From assembly GCF_024437735.1 (NCBI RefSeq), contig NZ_JANFQO010000001.1, positions 310,001 through 374,000 on the forward strand: 64,000 nt of DNA, read 5' to 3'. A model generated the notes under the pieces. It saw only the letters and a list, made by a program, of their open reading frames with translations. It did not search any database and had not been told where the DNA came from. Position numbers and translations under genes: made by a program. The stretch is from Tahibacter harae. GTDB lineage: Bacteria > Pseudomonadota > Gammaproteobacteria > Xanthomonadales > Rhodanobacteraceae. Positions within the stretch are counted from its first letter, which is position 1, and every line of letters begins with the position of its first letter. Shown one piece after another: positions 5,476 through 25,361 of this stretch.

Positions 5476-5567
5476 GGCGGCCGCCGCGGCCGCGTTGTTA
5501 GGCCCTTCGCGCATGGGCTATCCTGCGCGCCACTTTGCGTTCTTGCCCGCATTTCCCGAGGTTTGTC

Positions 5568-8397: not shown

Positions 8398-8426
8398 TGA
8401 ACACGCCTGGGCGCGCTTGCCATAAT
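8398..8426 (+). promoter_or_regulatory. Candidate sigma-70-type promoter before the first ECF gene
   Basis: TGAACA (8398-8403), a 17-base spacer and CATAAT (8421-8426) stand 30 bases before the ATG at 8456. The -10 is good and the -35 is poor. The call rests on spacing and position alone. Confidence 0.3.
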
Positions 8427-8455
8427 CTGGCGCACGCCACCGGCTACAGGACCTC

Positions 8456-9046
8456 ATGATGGCCAGCCCGCCCACCGAACTCACCGCATTGCTCGCCCGC
8501 TGGCGCAGCGGCGACCGCAGTGCGGAAAGGGAATTGTTCGACGCGATCTACCCCGTGCTGCGCGGCATCGCCCAGGCGCGGCTGCGGCGCCTGTCCACCG
8601 ATCTCACCCTCAGCGCCACCGAGATCGTCAACGAGACCTACGAACGCCTGCTCGGCTCGCGCCGCATCGAATACCGCGACCGCACCCATTTCTTCGCCAT
8701 GGCTGCGCGCGCCATCCGCCATTTCGTGATCGACCAACTGCGCACCCGCGGCCGCGACAAGCGCGGCGGCGGCCAGCCCTTCGTACGCCTGAGCGAACTG
8801 GACCAGGCCGAACCGGCCGGCGGCGACAGCATCGACCTGCGCGTGGACTGGCTGGCCGTGCACGCGGCGATCGAGGCGCTGGAACAGGTCGACGCCGGCT
8901 GCTCGCGCCTGGTCGAACTCAAATTCTTCTCCGGCCTGACCGTGGAAGAAATCGCCGAGAGCTGCGGCGTTTCCCGCGCCACCGTGGTGCGCGACTGGCG
9001 CTTCGCCAAGGCCTGGCTGGCGCAGCACCTGCAGGCGTTGAATTGA
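8456..9046 (+). CDS. ECF sigma factor 1 (Sigma70_ECF, kinase-associated type)
   Basis: 196 residues. Sigma region 2 covers about 25-95 (YPVLRGIAQARL, FFAMAARAIRHFVIDQLR). Sigma region 4 covers about 130-190, with a helix-turn-helix at GLTVEEIAESCGVSRATVVR. The family matches the Sigma70_ECF/Sig-70_X6 type that is repeatedly found beside Ser/Thr kinases. In region 2.2 the usual acidic DAEDLVQE stretch is replaced by LTLSATEIVNETYERL, with Thr55 and Thr61 as possible phosphorylation sites. No anti-sigma gene is next to it; the partner appears to be the kinase 127 bases downstream. Two paralogues lie at 17357 and 20893. Target promoters are unknown. Confidence 0.9.
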   Translation: MMASPPTELTALLARWRSGDRSAERELFDAIYPVLRGIAQARLRRLSTDLTLSATEIVNETYERLLGSRRIEYRDRTHFFAMAARAIRHFVIDQLRTRGRDKRGGGQPFVRLSELDQAEPAGGDSIDLRVDWLAVHAAIEALEQVDAGCSRLVELKFFSGLTVEEIAESCGVSRATVVRDWRFAKAWLAQHLQALN

Positions 9047-9173
9047 ATGATGATTTCTCAATGACCGGGATCCGGGTGCAACCTCGCAATCCACGGACGA
9101 AGCAATCGACGACCTGCATGATGTCCGCCCCGCCGGCAACCATCCGGGATCGCGCAAACGGACGAGAAAACCC

Positions 9174-11738
9174 ATGCCACAAGCCACCTTCCAGCGCCTG
9201 CGCCACCTGTTCAACGCCCTGGCCGACCTGACGCCGGAAGAACGCGAAGCCTTCCTCGCCGCCCAGCAGGATCTGGGCGCCGATACCCGGCGCCAGCTGC
9301 AACAACTGCTGCAATCGGATGAACAGCTGGCCGGCGTGACCGTGCGCAGCGCCATGAACACCGCCTATCAGCTGGCGGATGCGCACGCCGGACGCAGCGG
9401 CGAGCGCATCGGCGCCTATACCCTGCGGCGTCAGCTCGGCAGCGGCGGCATGGGCAGCGTGCACCTGGCCGAGCGCAGCGAAGGCGGCATCGTGCAGCAG
9501 GTCGCCATCAAGATCGTGCATCCGGAGCAGCTGGACGCGACCACGCTGGCGCGCTTCCGCCTCGAACGCCAGGTGCTGGCCCTGCTGCGCCATCCGCATA
9601 TCGCCAGCATGCTGGACCTGGGCGAGCTGGAAGACGGCAGCCCGTACGCGGTGATCGAATTCGTCGATGGCGTGCCCATCACGGTCCATGCGCGCGAGAA
9701 ACGCCTGGATCTGCGCCAGCGCCTGCACCTGCTGCTGGCGGTCTGCGACGCCGTCGCCCATGCCCACCGCAACATGATCGTGCACCGCGACCTGAAACCC
9801 AGCAATGTGCTGGTCGATGCCGACGGCCACGTCAAGCTGCTGGATTTCGGCATCGCCAAGCCGCTGATCAGCCAGTTCGGCGCCATCGACGTGGAGCAGA
9901 CCGCGACCGCACAGCGCTTCCTCTCGCCCAGCCACGCCGCGCCGGAGCAGTTCAAGGGCGAGGCCATCACCACCGCCTGCGATGTCTACGGCCTGGGCTC
10001 GCTGCTGTACGAACTGCTGTGCGACCAGCCGCCCTTCTCCACCGCCGACCGCACGCCGGGCCAGCTGGAGCGGGAAATCTGCGAAGTCGATCCGCCGCCG
10101 CCTTCGCGCCGCCGCGCCGCCGACGCCAGCATCGAAGCACCGCCGCGCGACCTGGACCTGATCGCCCTGCGCTGCCTGCGCAAGCAGCCGGCCGACCGCT
10201 ACAGCTCGGTGGAGGCGCTGGCGCAGGACCTGCGCAACTACCTCGCCGGCCGCCCGGTTGAGGCCCGCCGCGGCAGTTTCCTCTACCGCACCGGGCGCTT
10301 CGTCAGCCGCCATCGCAGCGCGGTCGCGTTGTCGGCCGTCATCGTCGGCGTTACCGCGGTCGGCTTTCTCCTGCTCGCGCAGCAGAACCGCGCCACCACC
10401 GAGCAACGCCTGCGCGCCGACGAAATGACCGGGCTGATCATCGACGCGCTGCGCTCGGCCGATCCCTCGCGCAAAGGCGCACGCGATCTCTCCGCCCGCG
10501 AAGTGTTCGAGCGGGTCGCCGGGCAGGTCCAGGCCAAGCCGGATCTGTCGCCACAGTCGCGCGCCAGCCTGATCAGCGCCATCGCCCGCATCGATCTGGA
10601 GCTGGGTCTGCCCAGACAGGCCGAGGCGCTGCTCGACCGGCTCGACGCCGAAGCCCTTTCCGCACGGGAGCGCGATCAGGCCCGCAACATCAGGGCGCGG
10701 GTGCTGATGTCCGCAGCCCGCTATGACGAAGCGCGCCTGATCATCGCCTCCGGCCTTGCCGAAGCTGCAAGCCCGCAACAGCGGATCCCGTGGCAGATTG
10801 CAGATACCCAGCTGGACTTCCACCAGGGCAAGATCGACGACGCACTGAAGAAGATCGATGCCGTACCAACCCAGGAAATCGACGCGGAAACCAGCGAAGA
10901 TCGCCTCAACCTGCGCGCGCAGATCCTGCTCGCGCAGGACAGGCGTCCCGAGGCGCTGGAGGAATTCAACCGCCTGCTGGCCGCCCAGCGCAAACGCCTG
11001 GGACGGGAGTCGCCAGCAGTATTTGAAACCCTGGGACAGATGGTTGTGGCCGAAGTGCGCGAAGGCAACTTCGACCGGGCCGAGCCGCTCAACAGCGAGC
11101 AGCTGGCGCTGGCAGAACGGCTGTTCGACAAAAATTCCGTCCGCTACGGCAGAGCCCTCAGCACCGCGCAACTGTATGAGCGTTACCGCGGAAACTACAA
11201 AAAGGCGCTCGAATACGAATATCGGAACAACGCCATACAACGCGAGCAGTACGGCGAGCCCAACCCTGCGCTGGCCCGGTCACATTTCAACCTTGCCGGA
11301 CTCCACACCTATCTGGAAGAGTACGCCGAGGCCGACGCTCATTTCGGCAAGGCGATCAGCAATGCGGAACGCGTCTGGCTGCCCTCGGACGGAAACTTGT
11401 TTCTGTTCCGCCTCGGGTTTGCCGTCCATCTCGCCATGAATAGCGATCGCCCCGCCGAGGCGCAGAAAGTCGCCCGCGTCGCGTTGAACAGCGCCGATAC
11501 CTATCCGGAGCTGAAAACCGAGGAAATCTATCTTCTGGGACTGCTGATCGACAGATACGGCGACTACAGCCGAGATCCGTCCAAGGCGAACCGCGCTGCG
11601 CTGATCAAGGCGCTGGACGAGGCAATCGCCGGTGGCAAAGGCATCAGCTACAAACGCACGCTCGGCGACTTCCTGCTTAAGCTCAAGACCAAAGGGATCG
11701 AACCGACGCCGGCAGCGACTGCAGGCTCCCCTGACTGA
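9174..11738 (+). CDS. Membrane-anchored Ser/Thr protein kinase with TPR-like C-terminal region (module 1)
   Basis: 854 residues. A conserved N-terminal segment (about 1-60, FQRLRHLFNALADL) is shared with the other two module kinases. The kinase domain runs from about 79 to 345: GSGGMGSV glycine loop, VAIKIV lysine, VHRDLKPSN catalytic loop (near 203), LLDFGIAK (near 224). The P+1 loop reads SPSHAAPEQF rather than the common GTPxYMAPEQ. One membrane helix (about 385-404) follows, then a helical repeat region (about 450-840) with TPR-like spacing (NLAGLHTYLEEYAEADAHF). The kinase is therefore cytoplasmic and the TPR part probably periplasmic, a plausible sensor. Pairing with the ECF gene just upstream suggests the sigma factor is its substrate, as for PknT/EcfP in Vibrio; that is inference. 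Confidence 0.92.
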   Translation: MPQATFQRLRHLFNALADLTPEEREAFLAAQQDLGADTRRQLQQLLQSDEQLAGVTVRSAMNTAYQLADAHAGRSGERIGAYTLRRQLGSGGMGSVHLAERSEGGIVQQVAIKIVHPEQLDATTLARFRLERQVLALLRHPHIASMLDLGELEDGSPYAVIEFVDGVPITVHAREKRLDLRQRLHLLLAVCDAVAHAHRNMIVHRDLKPSNVLVDADGHVKLLDFGIAKPLISQFGAIDVEQTATAQRFLSPSHAAPEQFKGEAITTACDVYGLGSLLYELLCDQPPFSTADRTPGQLEREICEVDPPPPSRRRAADASIEAPPRDLDLIALRCLRKQPADRYSSVEALAQDLRNYLAGRPVEARRGSFLYRTGRFVSRHRSAVALSAVIVGVTAVGFLLLAQQNRATTEQRLRADEMTGLIIDALRSADPSRKGARDLSAREVFERVAGQVQAKPDLSPQSRASLISAIARIDLELGLPRQAEALLDRLDAEALSARERDQARNIRARVLMSAARYDEARLIIASGLAEAASPQQRIPWQIADTQLDFHQGKIDDALKKIDAVPTQEIDAETSEDRLNLRAQILLAQDRRPEALEEFNRLLAAQRKRLGRESPAVFETLGQMVVAEVREGNFDRAEPLNSEQLALAERLFDKNSVRYGRALSTAQLYERYRGNYKKALEYEYRNNAIQREQYGEPNPALARSHFNLAGLHTYLEEYAEADAHFGKAISNAERVWLPSDGNLFLFRLGFAVHLAMNSDRPAEAQKVARVALNSADTYPELKTEEIYLLGLLIDRYGDYSRDPSKANRAALIKALDEAIAGGKGISYKRTLGDFLLKLKTKGIEPTPAATAGSPD

Positions 11739-12017
11739 GGTGACGTGACGCCTGGGATGCACTGCTGATCCGGGCCGCGGCAGTCCGGCTATACGGCGCA
11801 TGTCGGCAGTCCACGTGCCACGCGGGAAGCCCCGTCTCGCATCCAGTCCCGGTCAACACCATAGGCACTAGCTTGCCTGCCAGGGCGGCGGTAGCACCTT
11901 CGCACACCCGCGGCCGAACGTTCTCAGGCGGTGCGCCGATGATCATGTTTCATCCGGAACAGCGGTTACCACCGCAGCGGCCGCCCTCCTGCGGCCGTTT
12001 CAGCCGGAGAACAATCC
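11739..12017. other. Intergenic region between kinase 1 and the Rhs gene
   Basis: 279 bases without a supported gene. The end carries CCGGAG about 8 bases before the ATG at 12018, supporting that start. No attachment-site repeat or transposase remnant was seen at this junction. Confidence 0.5.
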
Positions 12018-15000
12018 ATGAGGTTTCCTCCAGATCCGCGCCATCCGCCAAGCCCCCACATCAACGCCGCCTCCCCGGCAACAGCAATCACGATCGCAGA
12101 AGCACAACGCCCGGCCTCGTCATGCAGCGTTGCTGCCGCGCTGGCATCGCTGGCCTTCCTCTTCATGGCCGCCAGCGCAACTGCCCAGATCAACTCGCAG
12201 TGCAAGGCCCAAGGCGGCGACGCGGAGTGCGTCGATCCGCTGCAGGGCGAGCCGGCCTGTATCGCCGCCGGCTACGTGTATACCTCCGATCCGCCGTGCC
12301 AGATCGACTACACCACCGTCACAGGCACCTGCAAGACCGAAGGCGAGGCACAGCAGGCCTTCCTGAACAACTGGAAAGCTGCCGTCAACCCAACCTGCCG
12401 GCAACCACGCATGGAAGTCTGCAGTCCGCCGCAGCAGTCGCTGACCTTCAAGCTGGGCGTGGCGCAGTACTGGTCCACCGGTTTCGACGGCTACATGTCG
12501 AGCAACCCGCCCGACGGCTCCTGTCCGGAGAACCTGGTTGCCTCCTGCGCCAGCGGCCGCGGCATCGCCAGCTCCTGCCGGCGCTGGGTGGAGTGTCCGC
12601 CAGGCTATGCGGAAGTCCATCCAGTCAACGGCCCCTGCAAGAAGATCGAAGGCAAGATCTGCCCTGCCGGCAATCCGATCGACTGCGGCGACGGCCAGAA
12701 ACTGCAGATGGAAGTCGATATTGCGGCCAACAGCTCAAGCTCGCTGAAATTCGCGCGCTACTACTCCAGCACCGGCTTCTACACCGCTCCGGGCAGCAAC
12801 CAGCCGCCCAATCCATTCGGCCGTACCTGGCGCCACAGCTACCAGCGCTCCATCGTGGTCGAGACCTCGGGGCCGCCGCACAACATCAGCCTCGCCCACG
12901 CCGTGCGGCCTGACGGCAAATACACACATTTCAAGCTGGTCAACGGCCAGTGGAAAGGCCGCGAAGACACCTGGGAAATCCTTGAGGAAGTCACCAGCCA
13001 GAACCAGCGCACCGGCTGGCGCTACACCAACGAAAAAGACGAGATCGAGCACTACGACGCCGCCGGACATTTGCTCAGCATCGTCACCCGAGCCGGTTTG
13101 GCGACCACCATCGACTACAACGGCAACTGGCAGCCGGTGCGGGTCACCGACGCCTTCGGCCGCAGCCTCGTCATCAGCTATACCGCGGCGGCCTATGTCA
13201 ACGGCCAGCTCGAACCGCGGCATGTGGACGTGGCCGATCCCGCCGGTGAGATCCATACCTATGAATTCAACGATCGCGAACGCCTCGTCCGGGTCATCCG
13301 TCCGGACAGCAAGGTGCGCCAATACCTCTACAACGAGGCAGCTCTGACGCAATATCCCACCAACGGCTGGGATCTGCTCACCGGCATCATCGATGAAAAC
13401 GGCAGCCGCTACGCCAGCTATCGCTACGATGCCTTCGGCCGCGCCGTTGAGGAATGGCACGGCAGCAACCAGGCAGACAAGCTCAGCCTGGAATACTACG
13501 GCCACTTCAACGACGCGACCTCCTTCACCACGCTGACGGACGCACTCGGCGCGATAACCCGGCGCCGCTATGTCGCTGTCGACGGACGTCTGCGCGACGC
13601 CGGAACCACCCGCTGCAGCGCGACGTCCTGCACCGCAACTAACCTGGAAAAGACCACACGGACCTACGACAGCAACGGCAATCTGAGCCAATCCACCGAC
13701 TTCCGCGGCACCATCACCGACTATGACCACAACACCCGCGGCCAGGAGCTGGTTCGCCGCGAGGGCTACATTCCCGCGGCAATGGGGTGTCCGCCACCAT
13801 CGACCTACAGCAGTTCGGCCTACGGATCCAGCTGCGTCGGCGGCACCTGCTGGTCGACTTCACCATTCGCCGGCAGCACCAGCGCAGCACCGCTGGGCTG
13901 GAACGGCTGGCAATACAGCTGTCTGGCCGCTGTCAGCCCGTCCAGCTATGTCCGCGCTACCGAAACCGACTGGCACGGCATCGTGCGCGCGCCGGTCGAA
14001 CGCCGGCTGCGCAATGCCAGCGGCGCGCTCGAGGCCAAGACGCAGTGGGCTTACAACAGTCGCGGGCAGGTCACCGCGCGCTGCGAGATAGCGCCTGAAG
14101 ATGCGGCGGCGATGGGCTACACCTGCAGCGATAGCATCGCTCCGTCCATTGACGCCAAAGTTCGGCGCTGGACTTATACCTATTGCGAGGCTGTCGATGT
14201 AGCGGCGAGCAATTCGACGTGTCCGATCGTAGGGTTGGAGAAGACGATGAATGGCCCACGCCTGACCAGCGATCCAGGCATGAACGGGCTGGATGACATT
14301 GCTACCAAAGCCTACTACCCAACCACGGACGAATCAGGCTGCGGCTCACCCGAAGGACCGTGCCACAGCAAGGGTGATTTGCACACAGTCACCAATGCAC
14401 TTGGCCATGTAAGAGAAAACGTCACCTACGATAAGGCTGGCCGACTGTTACGCAGCCGCGATCCCAACGGCACGTTAATCGATCTCGCCTACAACTGGCG
14501 CGGCTGGGCCACCTCGCGAAGGGTTCGTGCTCTCGCAAGCGGTGCGAACAACATTGATGATGGGACAATGACCATCACCTACGATGATGTCGGCCTGATC
14601 ACCCGGCTGGCTCACGCCGATGGCGCTTATCTCAGCTACGCCTATGATGACGCCTATCGTCTTACCGAAATCATGGACAATCTGGGAAATCGTACCAGGT
14701 ACACGCTGGATGCTTCGGGTAAACGCACGAAGGAAGAAACTTTCAATTCAACCTACGATGCAGCTATACCAGGCCAGGGGCTGAAGCGCAGGATAGCGCG
14801 GCATTACAATGTACTCGGACGCCCTGTAAAAACGCTCAACTCTGCCAGCATCCCGCTGCAGGACTCCAGCACATACGACACGACCGCATACCAGGACGGT
14901 TTCGATCCGAACGGCAACGCTGTCCGGTTTGACGACGGCGCGGGAAGTCGCTTCCAGCGCGACTACGATGCCCTGAATCGGCTTGTCCGCACCATCCACG

Positions 15001-17030
15001 ATGTCGCCGGCACAAATCCCCAGACGGCAAATGCGACGGTCGAAATAGGCTATGACGGCGCCGATCGAATTCGATCCGTCAAGGACCCTGACAATCTCGT
15101 CACGACGTTCCTTGTCGACGGACTCGGCAACCGCTCCGGCGTCAACAGCCCGGACACCGGACACACCAGCTACGAATACGATCTTGCCGGCAACCGCATC
15201 AGCGAAACGGATAGCAGGGGCATCTTGGTGCAGAAAACCTATGACCCGCTGAATCGTCTGCGCTCGATCAGCTATCCGGATTCCTCCTCGAACGTAAGCC
15301 AAGTCTACGAAGAGAGCAATTCGGCGACAGGCTGCCCGATTTCATTTCCGATATCCAGGTTGACGCGCCTCACTGATGCCAGCGGTAGCACCATCTTTTG
15401 CTATGACCGCCGCGGGAATGTGATCCGGAAAGTGCAAAATACGGACGGCGCCGTTTTTACGATCGAGTATGCCTATGACAATGACAACAGGATCAACCGA
15501 ATCGTGTATCCCAGCGGGAGCATAGTTCACTACACCAGGGATACAACGGGGCGGGTCGTCGGGATCAATTGGCAGGCATCGGCACAATCCCCTTCAGTTG
15601 CCATCGTGACGTCAGCGACCTACTACCCGTTCGGCCCCCTTAATGTGCTGACGTTCGGCAATGGACGCACGCTTGCGAAGGTTTATGACACCGACTACGC
15701 CATCGACAGCATTGCCAGTTCTGCTTCCGATGGCCTCGTGCTTGATCTGCAAACGGACGTTGTCGGAAACATTGTCAGTGCCAGCGGCACTACTGGGGCT
15801 ACAACTCCGGATCGTCACTATGCCTATGACCGCCTGTTCCGCCTGACGCAGGTCACGAACGCGAACGGAACCCTGCTCGAGGGTTACGACTATACTCGCG
15901 GCGGCGATCGCACTCGAAAAAGAATCGGAAGCGCCACTCAGAACTACTCATACGTTGCGGGCAAGCACAGAATTTCGGCTATCGACAATGTCAACCAGGT
16001 ACACGACAACGTCGGTAATATCGTTGATCGTAGCGATGGGACCACATTGACCTACGGTGACAACAATCGTCTCATCAAAGCGAGCGCAGGCAACAGTCAG
16101 GTCGACTATTCTTATACCGGCCGGGGAGAGCGCGTACACAAGAGCGGCTCTTTCGCCAGCTCGACCGATGTCGATGTTTACGTCTTCAACGAACAAGCCA
16201 AGGTACTGACAAACTATCGCGACAGAACCGGCAACGGTGGAGCACAGAACTTCATCGACTATATTTATCTGGACGATCTGCCGGTAGCCCAGATTCGCGA
16301 CGGCGCGCCTAGTTTTATCGAGACCGATCATCTGGGAACTCCGCGCGTAACTGCGTCCGCTTCGACGAACTCCAAGGAATGGGAATGGTCATTCCTGGGC
16401 TCCTCCTTTGGCGAACATGCGCCGGCGCTGTCGCCAAACGGAAAACCGTTGGACTTGCGCTATCCCGGACAATGGCAGGATGAAGACCTGCGTCTTGCCT
16501 ACAACGTCTTCCGCGATTTCGACGCGGCCACGGGGCGCTATGTCGAGAGCGATCCGATCGGCATTGCCGGAGGCTGGAATACCTACCAATATGCGGGCGC
16601 GAGCCCGTTGCGGCTAAGCGATCCTCATGGCTTGAATCCGATCATTACAGGCGCTCTTGCGTGCGGCGGAGGTTGCGTCGCTGGGATAGTAGGCAGCCAC
16701 GCCATTTGCGTTGGCCTGGGAATGTGGAATGGCGGCTCTTGGCGCGAATGCGACAAACGCTGCAGGCCAGATCCTTGCAAAGCGGCCAAAGTCTGCGTGA
16801 CCGGTTGTGTTGCGACTGTAGTTGTAGCCGGCACAGCGGGAAGCGCAGGAGTAGCCTTCGTTGGGCTTGGTGGTTTTGTTGCGGAAGAACTGCTTATTAC
16901 CTATATCGAGGAGCTTTTCCCATTTGACCCTTGCAAAGCGCTTGGATGGCCGAGTGGATGGTCCGACGACCAGCCTCCTGCCACGCCCTGGGACTTGTTG
17001 CCTGGTAATCAAGGCAAGATTCTGATGTAG
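12018..17030 (+). CDS. Rhs/YD-repeat protein with RHS-associated core and variable C-terminal tip
   Basis: 1670 residues. The N-terminus carries a long basic lead and a hydrophobic signal segment ending ASATA (about 42-58). A Cys-rich region (about 60-210) follows, then a DUF6531-like entry (GNPIDCGDG near 217; ARYYSSTGF). Many YD repeats (YDxxGRxxx) run from about 350 to 1400. The core is YLDDLPVAQIRDG, ETDHLGTPR (near 1434), FRDFDAATGRYVESDPIGI (near 1500-1518) and DPHGLNP (near 1537). After the core comes a tip of about 130 residues, Cys-rich with a hydrophobic glycine/alanine stretch, which I cannot match to a toxin fold. Rhs proteins enclose and deliver C-terminal effectors or act in contact with other cells. 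The DNA becomes visibly AT-richer from about 14.1 kb on. No VgrG, PAAR or obvious immunity gene is adjacent. Confidence 0.88.
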   Translation: MRFPPDPRHPPSPHINAASPATAITIAEAQRPASSCSVAAALASLAFLFMAASATAQINSQCKAQGGDAECVDPLQGEPACIAAGYVYTSDPPCQIDYTTVTGTCKTEGEAQQAFLNNWKAAVNPTCRQPRMEVCSPPQQSLTFKLGVAQYWSTGFDGYMSSNPPDGSCPENLVASCASGRGIASSCRRWVECPPGYAEVHPVNGPCKKIEGKICPAGNPIDCGDGQKLQMEVDIAANSSSSLKFARYYSSTGFYTAPGSNQPPNPFGRTWRHSYQRSIVVETSGPPHNISLAHAVRPDGKYTHFKLVNGQWKGREDTWEILEEVTSQNQRTGWRYTNEKDEIEHYDAAGHLLSIVTRAGLATTIDYNGNWQPVRVTDAFGRSLVISYTAAAYVNGQLEPRHVDVADPAGEIHTYEFNDRERLVRVIRPDSKVRQYLYNEAALTQYPTNGWDLLTGIIDENGSRYASYRYDAFGRAVEEWHGSNQADKLSLEYYGHFNDATSFTTLTDALGAITRRRYVAVDGRLRDAGTTRCSATSCTATNLEKTTRTYDSNGNLSQSTDFRGTITDYDHNTRGQELVRREGYIPAAMGCPPPSTYSSSAYGSSCVGGTCWSTSPFAGSTSAAPLGWNGWQYSCLAAVSPSSYVRATETDWHGIVRAPVERRLRNASGALEAKTQWAYNSRGQVTARCEIAPEDAAAMGYTCSDSIAPSIDAKVRRWTYTYCEAVDVAASNSTCPIVGLEKTMNGPRLTSDPGMNGLDDIATKAYYPTTDESGCGSPEGPCHSKGDLHTVTNALGHVRENVTYDKAGRLLRSRDPNGTLIDLAYNWRGWATSRRVRALASGANNIDDGTMTITYDDVGLITRLAHADGAYLSYAYDDAYRLTEIMDNLGNRTRYTLDASGKRTKEETFNSTYDAAIPGQGLKRRIARHYNVLGRPVKTLNSASIPLQDSSTYDTTAYQDGFDPNGNAVRFDDGAGSRFQRDYDALNRLVRTIHDVAGTNPQTANATVEIGYDGADRIRSVKDPDNLVTTFLVDGLGNRSGVNSPDTGHTSYEYDLAGNRISETDSRGILVQKTYDPLNRLRSISYPDSSSNVSQVYEESNSATGCPISFPISRLTRLTDASGSTIFCYDRRGNVIRKVQNTDGAVFTIEYAYDNDNRINRIVYPSGSIVHYTRDTTGRVVGINWQASAQSPSVAIVTSATYYPFGPLNVLTFGNGRTLAKVYDTDYAIDSIASSASDGLVLDLQTDVVGNIVSASGTTGATTPDRHYAYDRLFRLTQVTNANGTLLEGYDYTRGGDRTRKRIGSATQNYSYVAGKHRISAIDNVNQVHDNVGNIVDRSDGTTLTYGDNNRLIKASAGNSQVDYSYTGRGERVHKSGSFASSTDVDVYVFNEQAKVLTNYRDRTGNGGAQNFIDYIYLDDLPVAQIRDGAPSFIETDHLGTPRVTASASTNSKEWEWSFLGSSFGEHAPALSPNGKPLDLRYPGQWQDEDLRLAYNVFRDFDAATGRYVESDPIGIAGGWNTYQYAGASPLRLSDPHGLNPIITGALACGGGCVAGIVGSHAICVGLGMWNGGSWRECDKRCRPDPCKAAKVCVTGCVATVVVAGTAGSAGVAFVGLGGFVAEELLITYIEELFPFDPCKALGWPSGWSDDQPPATPWDLLPGNQGKILM

Positions 17031-17356
17031 AAACGGCAGACACTGCTGGAGGTGTATCCAGGATGTTCACTGATACAGTCCAGCGACAGACGCACAAGAC
17101 GATTGACATCAGCCTAGATCCGTATAGGCCTTCAATTCAGTCCAGCAACACGATCTGCGCGCCGGCCATTCCGGGGCGCAGATCTCGCACACGCTCTATA
17201 TGTCCCAAATCGACAACTGCTTAACAAAATACAAACGACACCGCAGACCACGCCTCAGCAAACTAGCGCCATGCAGTTGTAGCATCCGCCCTCACCACGT
17301 TACCTTTCGCGTTACGTCCGCCACATCGTTACCGGCCCGGCACTGCGCCGGCATCC
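17031..17356. other. 326-bp gap after the Rhs gene, no immunity gene seen
   Basis: The stretch is less GC-rich than its right-hand neighbours. Short open frames exist, but none has a good start and none resembles an immunity protein. It contains the inverted repeat at 17152-17184 and must hold the promoter of the second ECF gene. Confidence 0.5.
17152..17184. terminator. Hairpin after the Rhs gene (possible terminator)
   Basis: GATCTGCGC (17152-17160) and GCGCAGATC (17176-17184) form a perfect 9-bp stem around a 15-base loop. There is no T run, so it may be a Rho-associated or processing hairpin or an operator rather than an intrinsic terminator. Confidence 0.35.
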
Positions 17357-17944
17357 ATGAGCAGTCCCCCGCCAAGTCCCGAGATCACTGCCTTGCTGGG
17401 CCGCTGGCGCCAGGGAGACCGCGCTGCCGAGGGCGAGCTGATGCGTACGGTCTATCCGGTGCTGCGCGATATCGCGCGGGCGCGGCTGCGCAACTCCAGC
17501 GACGAGCTGACCCTGTGCGCGACTGAGCTGGCGCACGAGGTCTATGCGCGGCTGGCCCGCGCCGAGCACATGCACTACAACGACCGCGGCCATTTCTACG
17601 CCGTGGCGGCGCGGGCGATACGCAATTTCCTGATCGACCATCTGCGCGCGCGGGGCAGCGGGAAGCGCGGCGGCGATCTGCCGTTCGTGCCGCTGGAGCT
17701 GGCCGAAGACGTGGAGGATTCCGACCGCATAGACCTGCGCATCGACTGGCTGGGCGTGCACGAGGCACTCAACCGGCTGGAGACCGTGGATGCGGGCTGC
17801 GCGCGCATCGTCGAGCTGAAGTTCTTTTCCGGCCTGAGTACGGAGGAAATTGCGGCGGCCTGTGACATCTCGCGCGCGACGGTGGTGCGCAGCTGGCGTT
17901 TCGCCAAGGCCTGGCTGACCGACCAGTTGCGCCAGCCGTCATGA
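17357..17944 (+). CDS. ECF sigma factor 2 (Sigma70_ECF, kinase-associated type)
   Basis: 195 residues, paralogous along its length to the ECF genes at 8456 and 20893. Region 2 contains YPVLRDIARARLR and FYAVAARAIRNFLIDHLR. Region 4 contains the helix-turn-helix GLSTEEIAAACDISRATVVR. Region 2.2 reads LTLCATELAHEVYARL; Thr56 is the residue conserved in all three paralogues (T followed by E or D), while the second Thr of the other two is Val here. The partner kinase begins 322 bases downstream, the widest sigma-kinase gap of the three modules. The gene follows the Rhs insertion directly. Confidence 0.9.
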   Translation: MSSPPPSPEITALLGRWRQGDRAAEGELMRTVYPVLRDIARARLRNSSDELTLCATELAHEVYARLARAEHMHYNDRGHFYAVAARAIRNFLIDHLRARGSGKRGGDLPFVPLELAEDVEDSDRIDLRIDWLGVHEALNRLETVDAGCARIVELKFFSGLSTEEIAAACDISRATVVRSWRFAKAWLTDQLRQPS

Positions 17945-18266
17945 AGCCGGCCGGGCAAGAGCCGGCGGCAGCGACGCCGGAATCATGCGGAAAGGCGCCG
18001 GCAACCCGAAAACCCGCAGCCCTGCGCGGCGGCCGCCCGTGCAATGGCGCCTGCGGTTTTGTGGAATTGCGGTTGCAATCGCGTAAATAGCGCAATCACA
18101 GCATGTAATTTGGAACCTGCCGCCGCAAGCAGTTCGCGACGGGCAATCGAGGAAAGGCTCCGCACGGCCGGAAGTCGCGCGGCGGAACGGGATCCGTGCC
18201 TTTCGGGAAGTGGGCAAGGCCACGCGGCCCAAAGCGGCGCGGCAACGGGCTAAGGGGGCCCGGGAT
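17945..18266. other. 322-bp gap between ECF sigma 2 and kinase 2
   Basis: No supported gene. An AT-richer patch around 18055-18115 (GTGGAATTGCGGTTGCAATCG and following) could hold a promoter for the kinase, which would separate its expression from the sigma gene. The equivalent gaps in modules 1 and 3 are only 127 and 46 bases. Confidence 0.45.
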
Positions 18267-20792
18267 ATGACGCAGCAGGCGTTTCAGCGTCTACGGCAGT
18301 TGTTCGACCGGTTGACCGAGCTGCCGGCGGAGCAGCGCGACGATTTCCTCGCCGGTTGCGCGGAGATCGGCGAAACCACGCGGCGTCAGCTGCGCGATCT
18401 GCTGCAGGCCGACGCCGATGTGGGCGACCTCACCGTGCGTCCGCTGCGCAGCCCGGGCGAGGAAGCCGCCGCGGCCTGGCTGGGACGGCGCATAGGCGCC
18501 TTCGAGATCACCCGCGTACTGGGCCAGGGCGGCATGGGCAGCGTATTCCTGGCCAACCGTGTCGCCGGCGGCGTGGCGCAGCAGGTCGCGATCAAGGTCG
18601 TGCGCAGCGACATGCTCGACGCGGCCACGCGCGCGCGCTTCCGCCTGGAACGGCAGGTGCTGGCCCTGCTGCAGCATCCGAATATCGCGGCGATGCTGGA
18701 CCTGGGCGAGCTGGAGGACGGCAGCCCCTACGCCATCATGGAATTCGTCGACGGCGAAACCATCACCCGCCATGCGCGCGAGCACAACCTGGATCTGCGC
18801 CGGCGTCTGCAGCTGTTCCTGGAAGTCTGCAATGCGGTGGCGCATGCCCATCGCAGCATGATCGTGCATCGCGACATCAAGCCCGGCAATGTGCTGGTGG
18901 ATCGCGAAGGCCGGCCGCGCCTGCTGGATTTCGGCATCGCCAAGCCGCTTTCGGCCCAGCTCGGCGCTGTCGATGTGGAAGAAACCAGCGCTGCCCAGCG
19001 CTTCGTCTCGCTCAGCCACGCCGCGCCGGAACAGCTGCGCGGCGAAGCGATAACCACGGCCTGCGACGTCTACGGCCTGGGCGCACTGCTGTACGAGCTG
19101 CTCGCCGGCGTGCCGGCATTCGCACGCGAAGGGCTCACGCCGGCGCAGCTGGAACGCATGATCTGCGAGACCGATCCATTGCCGCCCAGCCGGCGCAGCG
19201 GCGCCGGCGGCGTGGCGGCGATTCCGCGCGATCTCGACCTCATCGTGCTGCGCTGCCTGCGCAAGCAACCGGCGGACCGCTACGTCTCGGTCGACCAGCT
19301 CGCCGGCGAGCTGCGCGATTTCCTCGCCGGCCGGCCGGTGCTGGCGCGGCGCGGCAATGCGCTGTATCGCGCCGGGCGCTTCTTCGCCCGGCACCGGCTG
19401 GCGCTGGCCCTGGGCGCGGTGATACTGCTCGGCGGCGTGACCGGACTGGCCCTGCTCTGGCGCCAGCAGCTGGCGACGCTGGCGCAACAGAGCCGCGCCG
19501 ATGCGATGACCGACCTGATCCTCTCCGCGCTGCACGGCGGCAGCAGCGACAATCCCGGCAGCAAGGACACCACCGCGCGCGAAGTATTCGAGCGCGTCGC
19601 CAGCGAGGCGCGCGCGCGCACCGACCTGGATCCGGTCTCGCGCGCCCGCGTGCTGGGCACGGTCGCGCGCGTCCACCTGGAGCTGGGCCTGCCCAAGGAA
19701 GCCGAGGCCGTGATCGCGCAGATCGACGACGCCGCGCTGCCGGCGGAACAGCGCGACGAGCTGGACCTGCTGCGGGTCAGCCTGCTGCAGGCGCTGAACC
19801 GCTTCGACGAGGCCCGCGCGGTGATCGCGCCGGCGCTGGCCAGGCCGCACGACGTGCAGGCCCGCGCGCGCTGGGATCTGGCCCAGGCCCGGCTGGATTA
19901 CGACGAAGGCAACAGCCAGGCGGCGCTGCAGCGCATCGATGCGATGACGCCGGCGGTGCTCAGTCCCGAACTGCGCGAGCAGCGCCTGAAGCAGCGCTCG
20001 GACACGCTGTGGGTGGCGGGGAAGCGCGCGGAGGGCATCGCCGACAGCGAACAGCTGCTCGCCCTGCGCCGCGCACGCCTGGGCGAGGAGTCGCCGGCCG
20101 TTTACAGCAGTCTGCGCGACCTCGCCAGCGGCTATCTCTACCAGGGCGATGTGGCCCGCGCGCAGCAATACAGCGATTCCATGCTGGCACTGGCAGGCAA
20201 GCTGTTCAGCGCCAATTCGCTGCGCTACGCCGATGCCCTGTCCATACAGCGCTCGCTGGAGCAGGAGCGTGGCGACTTCGAGGCCGCCCTCGTGCGGGAA
20301 CAGCGGGTACTCGCGATCCGCCGCGACCAGCTCGGTGCGGACGGCCCGCACGTGGCGCGCAGCTATTTCAATCTTGCCAGTCTGTACAGCCATAGCCGGC
20401 AGCTGGCTGCCGCGGAAGACTATGGACGCCGCAGCCTGGAAATCGCTGAACGGGTGTGGCTGCCCTCGGATCTCAACGTTTTCCTGTTCCGCGTCGTTTT
20501 CGCCGCGACGCTGATCGATAACGGCAAGATCGCAGAGGCCCGCACCGTCGTGCACAAGGCGCTCAAGGATTGCGAGACCTATCCGGCATTGCAGCAGTAC
20601 GACATCTATCCGCTGGCCCTGGCCATGGAACGGCTGGGCGCGTACGAGGCCGTACGCAGCGAGGAAAACCGCCTCGCCCTGAGCAAGGCCCTGCACGAAG
20701 CCAAGCAGGGCGCGGCCGACAATCAGACCCGTGCCTATGTCGACACGCTGCTGGCCCATGCCGCGGGCCGCGGCGTGGAGCCGGCGCCGTGA
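18267..20792 (+). CDS. Membrane-anchored Ser/Thr protein kinase with TPR-like C-terminal region (module 2)
   Basis: I choose ATG 18267 (MTQQAFQRLRQLF) because AAGGGGG lies 8 bases upstream and the N-terminus then aligns with its two paralogues; the frame is open further upstream. 841 residues. Kinase domain about 76-340: GQGGMGSVFLA, VAIKVV, VHRDIKPGN (near 200), LLDFGIAK, then SLSHAAPEQL as P+1 loop. A membrane helix lies at about 378-400 (LALGAVILLGGVTGLALLW). A helical repeat region follows, with the conserved linker TAREVFERVASEARART and a TPR-like stretch near 700 (SYFNLASLYSHSRQLAAAEDY). Overall plan equals modules 1 and 3, so it arose by duplication. The likely substrate is the neighbouring ECF sigma factor (inference). 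Confidence 0.92.
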   Translation: MTQQAFQRLRQLFDRLTELPAEQRDDFLAGCAEIGETTRRQLRDLLQADADVGDLTVRPLRSPGEEAAAAWLGRRIGAFEITRVLGQGGMGSVFLANRVAGGVAQQVAIKVVRSDMLDAATRARFRLERQVLALLQHPNIAAMLDLGELEDGSPYAIMEFVDGETITRHAREHNLDLRRRLQLFLEVCNAVAHAHRSMIVHRDIKPGNVLVDREGRPRLLDFGIAKPLSAQLGAVDVEETSAAQRFVSLSHAAPEQLRGEAITTACDVYGLGALLYELLAGVPAFAREGLTPAQLERMICETDPLPPSRRSGAGGVAAIPRDLDLIVLRCLRKQPADRYVSVDQLAGELRDFLAGRPVLARRGNALYRAGRFFARHRLALALGAVILLGGVTGLALLWRQQLATLAQQSRADAMTDLILSALHGGSSDNPGSKDTTAREVFERVASEARARTDLDPVSRARVLGTVARVHLELGLPKEAEAVIAQIDDAALPAEQRDELDLLRVSLLQALNRFDEARAVIAPALARPHDVQARARWDLAQARLDYDEGNSQAALQRIDAMTPAVLSPELREQRLKQRSDTLWVAGKRAEGIADSEQLLALRRARLGEESPAVYSSLRDLASGYLYQGDVARAQQYSDSMLALAGKLFSANSLRYADALSIQRSLEQERGDFEAALVREQRVLAIRRDQLGADGPHVARSYFNLASLYSHSRQLAAAEDYGRRSLEIAERVWLPSDLNVFLFRVVFAATLIDNGKIAEARTVVHKALKDCETYPALQQYDIYPLALAMERLGAYEAVRSEENRLALSKALHEAKQGAADNQTRAYVDTLLAHAAGRGVEPAP

Positions 20793-20892
20793 GAAACCGC
20801 GTACGTGCCGTTGTTTTTGATCCAATGCCGCCGGCTGGTCAGCCGTGCTGCCGATCGCCACAGACCGCGGCTTGCGGAGAATCATCGATACC

Positions 20893-21483
20893 ATGACCAC
20901 ATCGGCCGACGATACCGACATCACCGCCCTGCTCGCGCGCTGGCGCCAGGGCGACCGCGCCGCCGAAGCGGAGCTGCTGCGCTCGGTCTATCCGGTGCTG
21001 CAGGAGATCGCCCGGGCGCGCCTGCGCCGCACGCCGCAGGAACTGACCCTGGGCACCACCGACCTGGTGCACGAAACCTACGCCCGCCTGGCCCGCGCCG
21101 ATGGACTGGATTATCAGGCCCGCGGCCATTTCTTCGCCGTGGCGGCGCGCTCGATCCGCTATTTCGTCATCGACCACCTGCGCTCGCGCGGCAGCGAACG
21201 GCACGGCGGCCAGACGCCGTTCATCAGCCTGGACCAGCTCGAAGACGACGAGCCCGCATGCGACAGCATCGACCTCGGCGTGGACTGGCTGGCCGTGCAT
21301 GCCGCGCTGGAAGCGCTGGAAAAGGTCGATGCCGAATGCGCCTGGATCGTGGAGCTGAAATTCTTCGGCGGCCTGACCACCGAGGAAATCGCCGAAGTCT
21401 GCGGCGTATCGCGCGCGACCGTGGTGCGCAGCTGGCGCTTCGCGCGGGCCTGGCTGGCGGACCGGCTGCAGGCGTTCCGCTGA
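20893..21483 (+). CDS. ECF sigma factor 3 (Sigma70_ECF, kinase-associated type)
   Basis: Start at ATG 20893 (MTTSADDTDITALL) gives 196 residues and aligns with the other two ECF proteins; GGAGA lies about 11 bases upstream. The frame extends upstream without similarity. Region 2: YPVLQEIARARLRR and FFAVAARSIRYFVIDHLR. Region 4: GLTTEEIAEVCGVSRATVVR. Region 2.2 reads LTLGTTDLVHETYARL with Thr56 and Thr62. The kinase of module 3 starts 46 bases after its stop, the tightest coupling of the three modules, so co-transcription is likely. It begins 100 bases after kinase 2 and may belong to one long transcript with module 2. Confidence 0.9.
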   Translation: MTTSADDTDITALLARWRQGDRAAEAELLRSVYPVLQEIARARLRRTPQELTLGTTDLVHETYARLARADGLDYQARGHFFAVAARSIRYFVIDHLRSRGSERHGGQTPFISLDQLEDDEPACDSIDLGVDWLAVHAALEALEKVDAECAWIVELKFFGGLTTEEIAEVCGVSRATVVRSWRFARAWLADRLQAFR

Positions 21484-21529
21484 GAATCAATATTCCACAA
21501 CAGAACAAAATAGATCCGGAAGCTGCGCC

Positions 21530-24061
21530 ATGTCCGAAACGCCGTTCCGCCGCATCCGCGATCTCTTCGACCAGCTGGCGGAATTGCCCGCGGCCGAACG
21601 CGCCGGCTACCTCGCCGCCCAGGCCGACCTGGGCGAGGGCACCCGGCGCCAGATCGAAGATCTGCTGCTGGCCGATGCGCAGCTGGGCAGCGCAACCGCC
21701 CGCGCGGCAGTCAGGCCGGCGCCGTCTTCCGAGGCATGGACGGGCCGGCGCATAGGCGCATTCCGCATCAGCCGCGAGCTGGGCCGCGGCGGCATGGGCA
21801 GCGTATTCCTGGCCGAGCGCGTCGACGGCGGCGTGACGCAGCAGGTCGCCATCAAGATCGTGCGTCCGGAGATGCTGGATGCGGCGACGCTGGCGCGCTT
21901 CCGCCTGGAACGCCAGTTGCTCGCCCTGCTGCAGCATCCGAACATTCCGACCATGCTGGACCTGGGCGAGCTGGACGACGGCAGTCCTTACGCGGTGATG
22001 GAGTACGTCGACGGCATTCCCATCGATCGCTACGTGCGGGAACAGCAGCTGGACCTCAAGGCGCGGCTGCGCCTGTTCCTTCTTGTCTGCGCCGCGGTCG
22101 CTTATGCCCACCGCAACCTGATCGTGCACCGCGACCTCAAGCCCAGCAATGTGCTGGTCGATGCCGCCGGCCAGCCGCAGCTGCTGGATTTCGGCATCGC
22201 CAAGCCGCTGCTGGCCCAGGTCGGCGCGGTCGATGTGGAGGAAACCGGCGCGGCGCAGCGCTTCCTGTCGCTCAGCCACGCCGCGCCCGAGCAATTCAGC
22301 GGCGGCCCCATCACCACGGCCTGCGATGTCTACAGCCTGGGCGTGCTGCTGTACGAACTGCTCGCCGGCACCACGCCGTTCCGGCGCGAAGCGCTGACGC
22401 CGGCGCAGCTGGAGCAGCAGACCTTGCACGTCGACCCGGCACCGCCCAGCCGCGCCGCCGCAGCAGCGGATGGCAGCGGCTTGCGCATCGGTCAGGATCT
22501 GGACCTGATCACCCTGCGCTGCCTGCGCAAGCAGCCGGTCGACCGCTATGTCTCGGTGGACCAGCTGGCGGAGGACCTGCAGCGCTATCTCGCCGGCCAC
22601 CCGGTGCTGGCGCGCCGCGGCAACCTGGCCTATCGCCTGGGCCGCTTCGTCACGCGCCATCGCACTGGCGTGACGGCGGCGGCCGCGGTGCTGGCGCTGC
22701 TGCTGTCCGGCGCCCTGTTGCTGTGGCGCCAGCAGCAGGCCACGGCGCGGCAGCAGCTGCGCGCCGACGAGATGAGCGGACTGCTGATGGACACGCTGCT
22801 CTCGGTGGATCCGGACAGCGCCGGCGGACGCGATCTCAGCGCGCGCGAAGTGTTCGAGCGCGTCGCCGCCCAGGCCAAGGCCAGTCCCGATCTCAGCGCC
22901 GAATCGCGCGCGCGCATCCTGGGCACGGTGGCGCAGATCGACCTCGGCCTGGGCTATCCGACGCTGGCGGAAAATGCCGTGGCCGGCCTGTCACCGCAGG
23001 GCCTGGAACCGCTACAGCGCAATGAACTGCTGCTGCTCAAGGCGCGCACGCTGCTGGCCATGTCGCGCAACGAAGAAAGCCGCAGGCTGATCGACCAGGG
23101 CCTGGCAGAAAGCGCTGGCGATGCACGCCGCTCCGCGGTCTGGAAACTGCTGGACGCGAGCCACGACTATCACATCGGCCACGTGCCGCAGGCGCTGCAG
23201 AAGATCGACGCGATCACGCCGGACCTGCTCGAACCGGCGCAGGAAGACCAGCGCCGGCTGCTGCGCGCCGACGCGCTGCGGGTGAGCTACCGGCCGGAGG
23301 AAGGCATCAAGGAAATCGAGGCTGTGGTGGCGGCCCAGCGTGCGCGCCTGGGCGCGGATTCGCCGGCAGTGTTCCAGAGCCTGCAGAAACTGGCCATACG
23401 CGAAGCCGACGCCGGCGATCTGGAGCGCGGCGAAACGCTGTTCAAGGACGTGCTCGCCCTGGCCGAGAAAAGCTTCAGCCGCACCTCGGCGCGCTACGCC
23501 GAAGCGCTCAGCGTCGGCGTTTCCATCGAGACACGGCGCAGGAATTTCGCCAAGGCCACCGAGTACCTGCAGCAGATCATCCCTATCCTGATCGATCAGG
23601 TGGGCGAAGTGCATCCGCGCGTGGCTTACCAATATCTCAACCTGGCCAGCATCTACGAGGAATCCGGCCAGCTGCCGAAGGCCGGCGAGTACTACGCCAA
23701 GGGCGCGGCTGTCGCCGAGCGCGTCTGGCTGGGCGACGATACCAACCTGCTGCTGTTCCGCGTCGCCGCGGCCAGCCATTTCGCCCTGGTCGACGACTGC
23801 GCCAGGGCGCTGGAACAGACCACGCGCGGCGTGCAGGCGAACCTGACCTATCCCGAGCTGCTCCAGAGCGACGGCGCGCCGCTGATGGAAGTGCTGCACG
23901 CCTACTGCGGCTATCGGCTCAAGCCCGACCCGGCCGGCCGCAGCACACTGGCCCGCGGCCTGAAAAGGGCGCAGGAAGCGGCGCAGGATGCAAGCGTGAA
24001 GCAGGCCGTGGCCCAGGTGGTGCGCCAGGCCGCCGCCCTGGGCGTGCAACCGGCGGAATGA
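21530..24061 (+). CDS. Membrane-anchored Ser/Thr protein kinase with TPR-like C-terminal region (module 3)
   Basis: 843 residues. N-terminal FRRIRDLFDQLAELPAAER corresponds to the lead segment of the paralogues. Kinase domain about 75-340: GRGGMGSVFLAER, VAIKIV, VHRDLKPSN (near 199), LLDFGIAK, then LSLSHAAPEQF. Membrane helix about 378-402 (VTAAAAVLALLLSGALLLW). The long C-terminal region has TPR-like units, for example YQYLNLASIYEESGQLPKAG and a repeated A-x-x-A-x-x-x-L spacing. All core catalytic residues are present, so it should be active. The extracytoplasmic TPR part differs more between paralogues than the kinase part, which suggests different inputs. The aspartic protease gene begins 55 bases downstream. 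Confidence 0.92.
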   Translation: MSETPFRRIRDLFDQLAELPAAERAGYLAAQADLGEGTRRQIEDLLLADAQLGSATARAAVRPAPSSEAWTGRRIGAFRISRELGRGGMGSVFLAERVDGGVTQQVAIKIVRPEMLDAATLARFRLERQLLALLQHPNIPTMLDLGELDDGSPYAVMEYVDGIPIDRYVREQQLDLKARLRLFLLVCAAVAYAHRNLIVHRDLKPSNVLVDAAGQPQLLDFGIAKPLLAQVGAVDVEETGAAQRFLSLSHAAPEQFSGGPITTACDVYSLGVLLYELLAGTTPFRREALTPAQLEQQTLHVDPAPPSRAAAAADGSGLRIGQDLDLITLRCLRKQPVDRYVSVDQLAEDLQRYLAGHPVLARRGNLAYRLGRFVTRHRTGVTAAAAVLALLLSGALLLWRQQQATARQQLRADEMSGLLMDTLLSVDPDSAGGRDLSAREVFERVAAQAKASPDLSAESRARILGTVAQIDLGLGYPTLAENAVAGLSPQGLEPLQRNELLLLKARTLLAMSRNEESRRLIDQGLAESAGDARRSAVWKLLDASHDYHIGHVPQALQKIDAITPDLLEPAQEDQRRLLRADALRVSYRPEEGIKEIEAVVAAQRARLGADSPAVFQSLQKLAIREADAGDLERGETLFKDVLALAEKSFSRTSARYAEALSVGVSIETRRRNFAKATEYLQQIIPILIDQVGEVHPRVAYQYLNLASIYEESGQLPKAGEYYAKGAAVAERVWLGDDTNLLLFRVAAASHFALVDDCARALEQTTRGVQANLTYPELLQSDGAPLMEVLHAYCGYRLKPDPAGRSTLARGLKRAQEAAQDASVKQAVAQVVRQAAALGVQPAE

Positions 24062-24116: not shown

Positions 24117-25361
24117 ATGCCCACGTCGCCCCGGCCGCTGCAGCTGCGCACCACGCTCGCCTATGCCCGCGGCGGCTATACCGCGGCGCTGGAGGTGGGC
24201 AGCAGCAATGCCTGCGTCAACGTGCTGCTGGATACCGGCAGCAGTACGCTGGCGCTGACCGGCAGCAAATACCGGCCGGACAGCGACAGCGCGCTCGGCG
24301 CCACCGCACTGGCCCAGCAAGTGACGTACGGCAAGGGCGCCTGGGCCGGCCCGGTCCTGCATTCGCGCATAGGCTTCGGCGAAGGCGATCAGGCGCGGCG
24401 CGTGGACGGCGCGGCCTTCGCCCTGGTGGAGAACGATGCCAGCGCTTTCTTCCGCAATGCCGACGGCATACTCGGCCTGGCCTACCGGCAGCTCAATCCC
24501 GCCCACGACATGACGGCGCCGCTGACCCGGCAGGGCCGCGATCCGGCGCTGACCTGGCCCTGGCCTTACGATCTTTCCAACGCCGAAGCCCTGGCCGCCT
24601 TCAAGCAGGAACTGCTGCAGCAGCCGCGCGTGACCCTGCAGCCGCTGTTCTGCGCGCTGGAGGGCGAGGGCCTGTTCGCCGACCGCTTCGCGCTGAGCGT
24701 GCGCCGCGCCGTGGTACACGTGACCGACGCGGCGGCGACGCCGGCGCAGCTCGCCGCCGATCCGCTCAACAGCGGCGTGCTGGTGCTGGGCGGCGGCGAG
24801 GAATGCCAAGCGCTGTACCGCGGCGGTTTCCAGGACGTGCGCATCCTGCACGATCTCTACTACAACGCGAACCTGCTCTCGGTGCAGGTCGGCGACCAGG
24901 AACCGATCGCGGCGGCACAGGTCGCGCCGCAGTACCGGGACGGCTGCGTCAGCAACGCCTTTATCGACACCGGAAGCAGTTTCCTCGCGTTGGAAGGCAC
25001 GCTCTACGACGCCGTGCTGACCGGCTTCGCCGCGCACGATGCGTCCCTGCCGCAACTGATCCAGCGCTTCGAGGAACAGTTCCGCAACGAACAGGGCCTG
25101 CCCAACGAAGCCGTGGACACGCGCCGCTGGCCGGCGCTGCATTTCCGCCTGGAAGGCAGCAACGGCGGCGAAGTCTGCCTGCGCTGCGAACCGGCGCAGT
25201 ACTGGCAGCGCAATGCGAACGTGGCGGGACAAAGCCTGTTCCTGCTGCTGCGCTGGAGCCGGCAAAGCGTGCTCGGCCTGCCGCTGCTGTGCGGCCGCTA
25301 CTGCATCTTCGACCGCCGCGACGACGAATGCGGCCGCGTGCGCCTCGCCGATCTGCGCTGA
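24117..25361 (+). CDS. Pepsin-type (family A1) aspartic protease
   Basis: 414 residues with both halves of a pepsin fold: LLDTGSSTLALTG (Asp39) and AFIDTGSSFLALEG (Asp284) carry the two catalytic Asp residues. DGILGLAYRQ after the first half is a hallmark of A1 proteases, as is the hydrophobic-Gly motif GLPLLCGRYCIFD near the end. Such two-domain pepsins are uncommon in bacteria; shewasins are the best-known examples and, like this protein, have no signal peptide and stay in the cytoplasm. No prosegment is obvious before the first catalytic half. It stands 55 bases behind kinase 3 on the same strand, so it may be co-expressed. Substrate unknown. The start codon has no clear ribosome site. Confidence 0.85.
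   Translation: MPTSPRPLQLRTTLAYARGGYTAALEVGSSNACVNVLLDTGSSTLALTGSKYRPDSDSALGATALAQQVTYGKGAWAGPVLHSRIGFGEGDQARRVDGAAFALVENDASAFFRNADGILGLAYRQLNPAHDMTAPLTRQGRDPALTWPWPYDLSNAEALAAFKQELLQQPRVTLQPLFCALEGEGLFADRFALSVRRAVVHVTDAAATPAQLAADPLNSGVLVLGGGEECQALYRGGFQDVRILHDLYYNANLLSVQVGDQEPIAAAQVAPQYRDGCVSNAFIDTGSSFLALEGTLYDAVLTGFAAHDASLPQLIQRFEEQFRNEQGLPNEAVDTRRWPALHFRLEGSNGGEVCLRCEPAQYWQRNANVAGQSLFLLLRWSRQSVLGLPLLCGRYCIFDRRDDECGRVRLADLR

Follow-up and report, generated by a model that had tools for sequence, protein, structure and literature searches.

Whether several sigma factor/kinase pairs encoded in one locus act as insulated channels or as a shared network is a testable question, and it is posed by a locus in Tahibacter harae. 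The window, i.e. the entire analysed stretch of 64,000 nucleotides (RefSeq assembly GCF_024437735.1, contig NZ_JANFQO010000001.1, positions 310,001 to 374,000 of the forward strand), contains between positions 8456 and 24061 three genes for extracytoplasmic function (ECF) sigma factors, each of which is followed on the same strand by one intact Ser/Thr kinase gene, as determined by open reading frames (ORFs) and family scans. Few sigma factors have been shown to be activated directly by a Ser/Thr kinase; PMC13147305 and PMC8999054 name EcfP with PknT, EcfK with PknS and a pair in Hyphomonas neptunium. Among the titles listed in searches of open papers on ECF43, on Tahibacter sigma factors and on wider subjects, none is about this locus. 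We consider it quite probable that the three modules are paralogous kinase/sigma switches of the EcfK-PknS and EcfP-PknT kind, in which the linked kinase phosphorylates a Thr of the sigma factor, and that they represent old paralogues with turnover.

Sigma factors, kinases and their studied relatives

Module 1 consists of sigma factor 1 (8456..9046, 196 amino acids) and kinase 1 (9174..11738, 854 amino acids), module 2 of sigma factor 2 (17357..17944, 195 amino acids) and kinase 2 (18267..20792, 841 amino acids from its ATG, with an additional in-frame GTG upstream at 18210), and module 3 of sigma factor 3 (20893..21483, 196 amino acids from its ATG; the ORF as listed begins at a GTG at 20845) and kinase 3 (21530..24061, 843 amino acids). 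All six genes are located on the + strand and are full length, and the gaps between sigma factor and kinase genes, counted with ATG starts, are 127, 322 and 46 bases. An initial annotation had described the same arrangement of ECF genes followed by kinase genes with a transmembrane (TM) segment and tetratricopeptide repeats (TPR), and both the ORFs and the family scans agree with it. It had also described the modules as tandem, which holds for modules 2 and 3 only, because a gene of about 5 kb for a 1670 amino acid RHS/YD-repeat protein (12018..17030, + strand, identified by family scans) splits modules 1 and 2. Its statement that no anti-sigma gene is present is retained for the 15 window proteins that were scanned with Pfam, none of which belongs to an anti-sigma family.

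Against the hidden Markov model (HMM) TIGR02999, which has a cut-off of 126.15 bits, sigma factors 1, 2 and 3 score 174.0, 174.0 and 169.9 bits, and they match PF07638 with E values of 2.8e-42, 7.5e-46 and 6.8e-42. Kinases 1 to 3 match PF00069 in combination with TPR_12 repeats (Pfam). Since the HMM scores far exceed the cut-offs, these family assignments reflect more than chance. The catalytic motifs (Gly-loop, VAIK, HRD, DFG and APE) are intact in all three kinases, which share one plan: kinase 1 has an N-terminal region, a kinase domain (residues 82-351), a TM segment near residue 384 and a TPR part, and each of the three proteins contains one hydrophobic segment near residue 380 that precedes the TPR region. 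Kinase 1, for which the comparison with PDB sequences was made, finds its best match in 9eed (E 3.9e-54 over residues 5-357, the N-terminal region included), which is entitled PknS of Xanthomonas citri. For kinase 3, an AlphaFold2 model built from 8 sequences, with the L046 row being partial, reached a mean predicted local distance difference test (pLDDT) score of 74.6. Its kinase domain is patchy, the TPR part is mostly above 80, and helices are present throughout beyond residue 438, forming a predicted extracytoplasmic helix run. In a Foldseek search with this model, the 50 matches listed are all kinases, with PknS at rank 6. The model adds little.

All three sigma factors contain a Thr at the phosphorylation site of EcfP and EcfK (T51), where it replaces the DAED motif by SATE, CATE and GTTD in sigma factors 1, 2 and 3, respectively; this position was set from the motifs in the papers, in an alignment without an EcfP or EcfK row. 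With this Thr in three of three sigma factors and PknS as the best match of kinase 1, the initial assignment to EcfP/EcfK-type modules is supported. A survey of 125 sigma factors from eight genomes of the genus revealed Thr or Ser at this site in 97 of the 100 sigma factors that are linked to a co-directional kinase (96 Thr, one Ser). The Thr is also found in all four sigma factors at contig ends, where the pairing with a kinase is undecidable. The three exceptions among the paired sigma factors include L049 and L050 of the same genome as the window. These ECF genes (L049:8702-9271 and L050:6366-6929) score below the TIGR02999 cut-off, carry the acidic motifs ETED and DTAD, and are each followed by a kinase gene. 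With them, this genome encodes two kinds of sigma-kinase pairs. In the window, the fourth motif position is acidic in all three sigma factors (E, E and D). The same holds for 49 of the 97 paired sigma factors that have Thr or Ser at the site, and for 11 of the 19 unpaired ones with Thr. A negative charge at this position occurs in 15.8% of ECF43 members, EcfK included (PMC13147305), and is therefore no bar to ECF43 membership.

EcfK-PknS of X. citri, an ECF43 system that acts in type VI secretion system (T6SS) expression and amoeba resistance, resembles the window modules in several respects: the sigma factor is encoded beside a Ser/Thr kinase with a TM segment and a periplasmic TPR-rich part, the phosphorylated Thr has an acidic neighbour in the QATE motif, and PknS is the closest solved relative of kinase 1. 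In contrast to the window, where three pairs are found beside RHS and pepsin-like genes, it is encoded inside a T6SS cluster, and its second site, T106 in the linker (PMC13147305), appears to be absent from sigma factors 1 and 2, as judged by residue counting without the EcfK sequence. For a direct alignment with EcfK, five genomes of two other genera were searched with TIGR02999, which yielded seven matches over the cut-off; the QATE motif was absent from the five readable sigma factors (L118, L120-L123). In EcfP-PknT of Vibrio parahaemolyticus, an ECF43 pair of the polymyxin response, a Thr likewise replaces DAED, the kinase is linked and no anti-sigma factor is reported. EcfP differs by its STTA motif, which lacks the acid (PMC8999054), whereas the window sigma factors keep one; this comparison is by motif only.

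In the proposed mechanism, the TPR part of each kinase would sense something outside of the inner membrane and the kinase would activate itself. It would then transfer phosphate, chiefly to the sigma factor encoded beside it, at the Thr of region 2.2, i.e. residues 55, 56 and 56 in sigma factors 1 to 3 (the residue in sigma factor 1 was counted by hand). The added charge would aid binding of the sigma factor to core RNA polymerase, and the sigma factor would turn on a small gene set, of which the genes next to the module are the most plausible members. Phosphorylation, activation by phosphorylation and sensing are features that we infer from the studied relatives. The pairwise identity among the three kinases is 69-73% in the kinase domain, but only 38-41% in the extracytoplasmic part. 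This is the pattern expected if the TPR parts sense different inputs, as the initial annotation had proposed, and three parallel channels with different inputs are likely. With 19 directly linked pairs in the genome, three of them in one locus and with kinase domains of this similarity, T. harae provides a natural test bed for insulated versus leaky pathways.

Co-inheritance and age of the modules

The T. harae genome (5.99 Mb in 79 contigs) contains 23 TIGR02999 matches over the cut-off, of 29 at E 1e-3, and 19 of these 23 sigma factor genes are followed directly downstream by a kinase gene on the same strand, while four are not. It also encodes 41 Pkinase domains. Across the eight genus genomes, 22 to 35 TIGR02999 matches per genome are found at E 1e-3, matches below the cut-off included, and in the bacterial family at least 88 of 147 genomes have matches over the cut-off, with at most 21 candidates scored per genome. 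The window modules probably belong to the known ECF43-type sigma/kinase kind, in a genome that is unusually rich in it and at a site that undergoes turnover. For the genus-wide comparison, relatives contributed those sigma factors that matched sigma factor 2 with an E value of 1e-25 or lower, and the counts refer to this range, which does not extend to remoter ones. The overlapping copies L116 and L117 were excluded and the four contig-end sigma factors set aside; L049 and L050 were counted among the 100 paired sigma factors and left out of the trees of 98 pairs.

Over these 98 pairs, sigma factor and kinase tree distances correlate with r = 0.75, and 1000 re-pairings within genomes gave an r of 0.00 +/- 0.03 with a maximum of 0.098. 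One kinase of the relative G065 had been assigned two sigma factors, and a rerun with 97 distinct kinases resulted in r = 0.749. The 19 pairs of T. harae alone yield an r of 0.69, which was reached by none of 5000 permutations. Because the tree distances agree over the 98 pairs, the modules are mostly co-inherited; they tend to travel as units, which is less clear among the closest pairs, and at the window site the agreement is lower. Whole-module duplication, as part of the initially proposed local duplication, is supported in part by this agreement.

A recent and local duplication is not supported by the trees. Kinase 3 clusters with a kinase of another species (G065; support 95/96), and the three window kinases as one clade are weakly disfavoured in the approximately unbiased (AU) test (p = 0.044); for the three window sigma factors, one clade is not rejected (p = 0.069). 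A fourth closely related pair, L046, is located on another contig of the same genome. Its kinase clusters with a kinase of G036 (probably Tahibacter aquaticus; support 100/99), its sigma factor with window sigma factor 1 (94/91), and a full-length tree of eight kinases again joined the kinases of L046 and T. aquaticus (100/100) and left the window kinases unresolved. Forcing the L046 sigma factor together with the T. aquaticus sigma factor was rejected (p 0.007), as was forcing the L046 kinase together with kinase 1 (p 0.0003). The tree congruence that the initial annotation had suggested checking is accordingly broken for one pair at a shallow level; for module 3 it is not rejected, since sigma factor 3 can be held together with the sigma factor that precedes the G065 kinase (p = 0.109). 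In our reading, the window modules are old paralogues, apparently predating the related species, with differential loss and one or more changes of partner in their history. Such a change could result from a deletion within a tandem array.

A separate search addressed residue co-evolution, which the initial annotation had also proposed. By plain mutual information over the 98 pairs, eight of 46314 column pairs exceeded the maximum of 60 within-genome shuffles, and several of the top pairs combined the kinase activation segment with the sigma factor helix that precedes the Thr. This signal was rejected as clade history: on 41 nearest-neighbour contrasts, from which near-identical rows had been dropped, the block showed no excess by any of three measures (p 0.72, 0.74 and 0.87), and the phylogeny-controlled search thus found no covariation.

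Gain and loss at the site and alternative explanations

The variable island is bordered on the left by a glycosyltransferase family 2 gene (5535..8156, + strand), which is present in all eight genus genomes and 85-92% identical in the seven relatives, and on the right by a gene for a pepsin-like peptidase of family A1 (24117..25361, + strand; PF00026, E 1.5e-13; two DTGSS motifs), 55 bases behind kinase 3. Between these borders, the window has the three pairs plus the RHS gene, compared to none to two modules in the relatives: G065 has two sigma factors and one kinase, G014 one sigma factor and G091 nothing. T. aquaticus (G036) has a sigma factor, a second one that belongs to a different type, a kinase and an RHS gene, followed by about 14 kb of other genes and then by a sigma factor, a kinase and a kinase fragment (L086). 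The second sigma factor of T. aquaticus (L053:8053-8643), between the first sigma factor and the kinase, carries DTGV at the phospho-site motif. G065, G014 and G036 possess an extra sigma factor past the pepsin-like gene, and behind it lies a large gene that belongs to the same family in all three and encodes a subtilase in the scanned G065 copy. When this extra sigma factor is included, the sigma factor to kinase ratio at the site is 3:1 in G065, 2:0 in G014 and 4:2 plus the fragment in G036. G050 and G079 lack a pepsin-like gene, and the stretches taken beside their glycosyltransferase gene contain no sigma-kinase genes; G079 has a kinase-less sigma factor of the clade (L088) 33 kb away, and the G103 contig does not continue past the glycosyltransferase gene. 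Copy number is thus directly seen to vary, and the comparisons point to gain or loss of modules at the site. Kinases were lost here, and at least one sigma factor and kinase seem to have been re-paired.

Several observations weigh against switches in which each sigma factor is controlled by its own kinase through the Thr. This residue is also present in 19 of the 21 sigma factors that lack a co-directional kinase over a distance of 1.5 kb (for 13 of these 21, the stretch retrieved includes a kinase domain at another place, for eight it does not), and its presence is therefore no proof of kinase control. An acid adjoins the Thr in SATE, CATE and GTTD, likewise in QATE of EcfK, and because this acid is kept and the T51A variant of EcfK is functional (PMC13147305), Thr phosphorylation may be neither the sole nor an all-or-none switch. 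The linker position of T106 is Ser, Thr, Asp or Glu in 87.9% of Xanthomonadales ECF43 members (PMC13147305), and the column matched to it by alignment and residue count, without the EcfK sequence, holds R, P and S in sigma factors 1 to 3; with R and P there, the Thr of region 2.2 may be the main site in sigma factors 1 and 2. The co-inheritance within T. harae drops to an r of 0.43 when one of the four close pairs is kept (reached by 14 of 5000 shuffles), and the close clade of eight pairs shows no more than marginal agreement (r 0.65, which 251 of 5000 shuffles reach). Faster drift of the sensor parts would produce the same divergence pattern as different inputs. Finally, the G014 site has two intact sigma factors and no kinase was found there, G091 has a pepsin-like gene without an adjoining sigma factor or kinase, and no promoter motif is common to the sigma factor, pepsin-like and RHS genes of the clade among 21 upstream regions.

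Part of these observations would follow if the sigma factors were active without phosphorylation, the acid beside the Thr sufficing for core binding, expression level providing control and the kinases acting elsewhere. The acid retained in each window motif, the persistence of kinase-less sigma factors in relatives and the functional T51A variant are in line with this explanation. We regard it as improbable, as it conflicts with the near-universal Thr in paired and unpaired sigma factors, with the co-inheritance of sigma factors and kinases, and with the requirement of PknS for T6SS expression in X. citri (PMC13147305). A rather doubtful possibility, yet one with more in its favour, is a shared network, in which close-family kinases phosphorylate several sigma factors, so that sigma factors outlive their own kinase and partners swap. 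Sigma factors outnumber kinases in all three relatives that have sigma factors at the site, and those without an adjoining kinase keep open frames and the Thr, except for the DTGV sigma factor of G036. The glycosyltransferase-proximal sigma factor of G014 is intact, keeps SATE and has a ratio of nonsynonymous to synonymous substitution rates (dN/dS) of 0.23 against its G065 orthologue; between the same genomes, dN/dS is 0.06 for the glycosyltransferase, 0.21 for the pepsin-like gene, 0.28 for the sigma factor after it and 0.31 for the subtilase-type gene. Sigma factor and kinase of L046 have different nearest relatives, and the 41 kinase domains of T. harae are faced by two PP2C_2 (PF13672) domains, the sole phosphatase family searched. 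However, the strong genus-wide co-inheritance of partners favours cognate preference, a deletion in a tandem array can re-pair genes without functional meaning, the groups of the AU tests were picked after the trees had been seen, and dN/dS spans both lineages with the kinase loss being undated. More speculative still, and in our view unlikely, is that the site is an evolving switchboard, whose module halves are lost, kept apart and re-paired, with one kinase driving several sigma factors and with kinase-less sigma factors in use that are switched off by few shared phosphatases. We consider it very improbable that the locus is merely in decay, lacks distinct functions and is retained by chance in this genome: module number varies by species and G036 has a kinase fragment, but none of the six module genes in the window is truncated and the catalytic motifs of the kinases are intact.

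Candidate outputs and further sigma-kinase genes

Returning to paralogous switches with cognate partners, the RHS protein is, by its position, a candidate output of module 1, and the pepsin-like peptidase, likewise by position, of module 3. The RHS relative in T. aquaticus (49% identity) is also located after a kinase of this clade. The pepsin-like gene occurs in five of the eight genus genomes and is adjoined by sigma or sigma-kinase genes in four of these five, which distinguishes it from the bacterial pepsin homologues of family A1 described in PMC2761423; it shares with them the two active-site motifs and the lack of a signal peptide, as judged by eye or by a crude rule. Since G091 has the gene alone, it needs no neighbouring module. 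The comparison of promoter motifs that the initial annotation had suggested did not bear out a common motif: the best dyad occurred in five of the 21 upstream regions, one of 30 shuffles also reached five, and the top sets were mostly orthologous glycosyltransferase ends. For 84 of the 98 pairs a next gene was obtained, and 43 of these genes shared the strand and qualified by distance and length. By a crude home-made rule, 21 of these 43, many of which are orthologous, are signal-peptide-like, compared to 79 of 246 other genes. Firm support is provided neither by the covariation of residues nor by promoter motifs or secreted neighbours.

Upstream of sigma factor 1, one sigma-70-like match is present at 8398-8426, which has little meaning as shuffles of the region average 2.4, and the same applies to 17 terminator-like sites versus 12.5 +/- 3.3. 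A further kinase gene with TPR repeats is located in the window at 61169-63631 (+ strand; PF00069, TPR_12, TPR_10) and has no adjoining TIGR02999 sigma factor. At L041:5724-8823, a kinase ORF (5724-8294, + strand) and a TIGR02999 sigma factor ORF (8212-8823, - strand) are convergent, with an overlap of 83 bases between their 3' ends. In one clade (L037, L095, L097, L099, L100 and L101), a gene that encodes a secreted-looking protein (147-170 residues) comes after each module, whereas the gene picked as next in the related L098 is a different one, 777 bases on.

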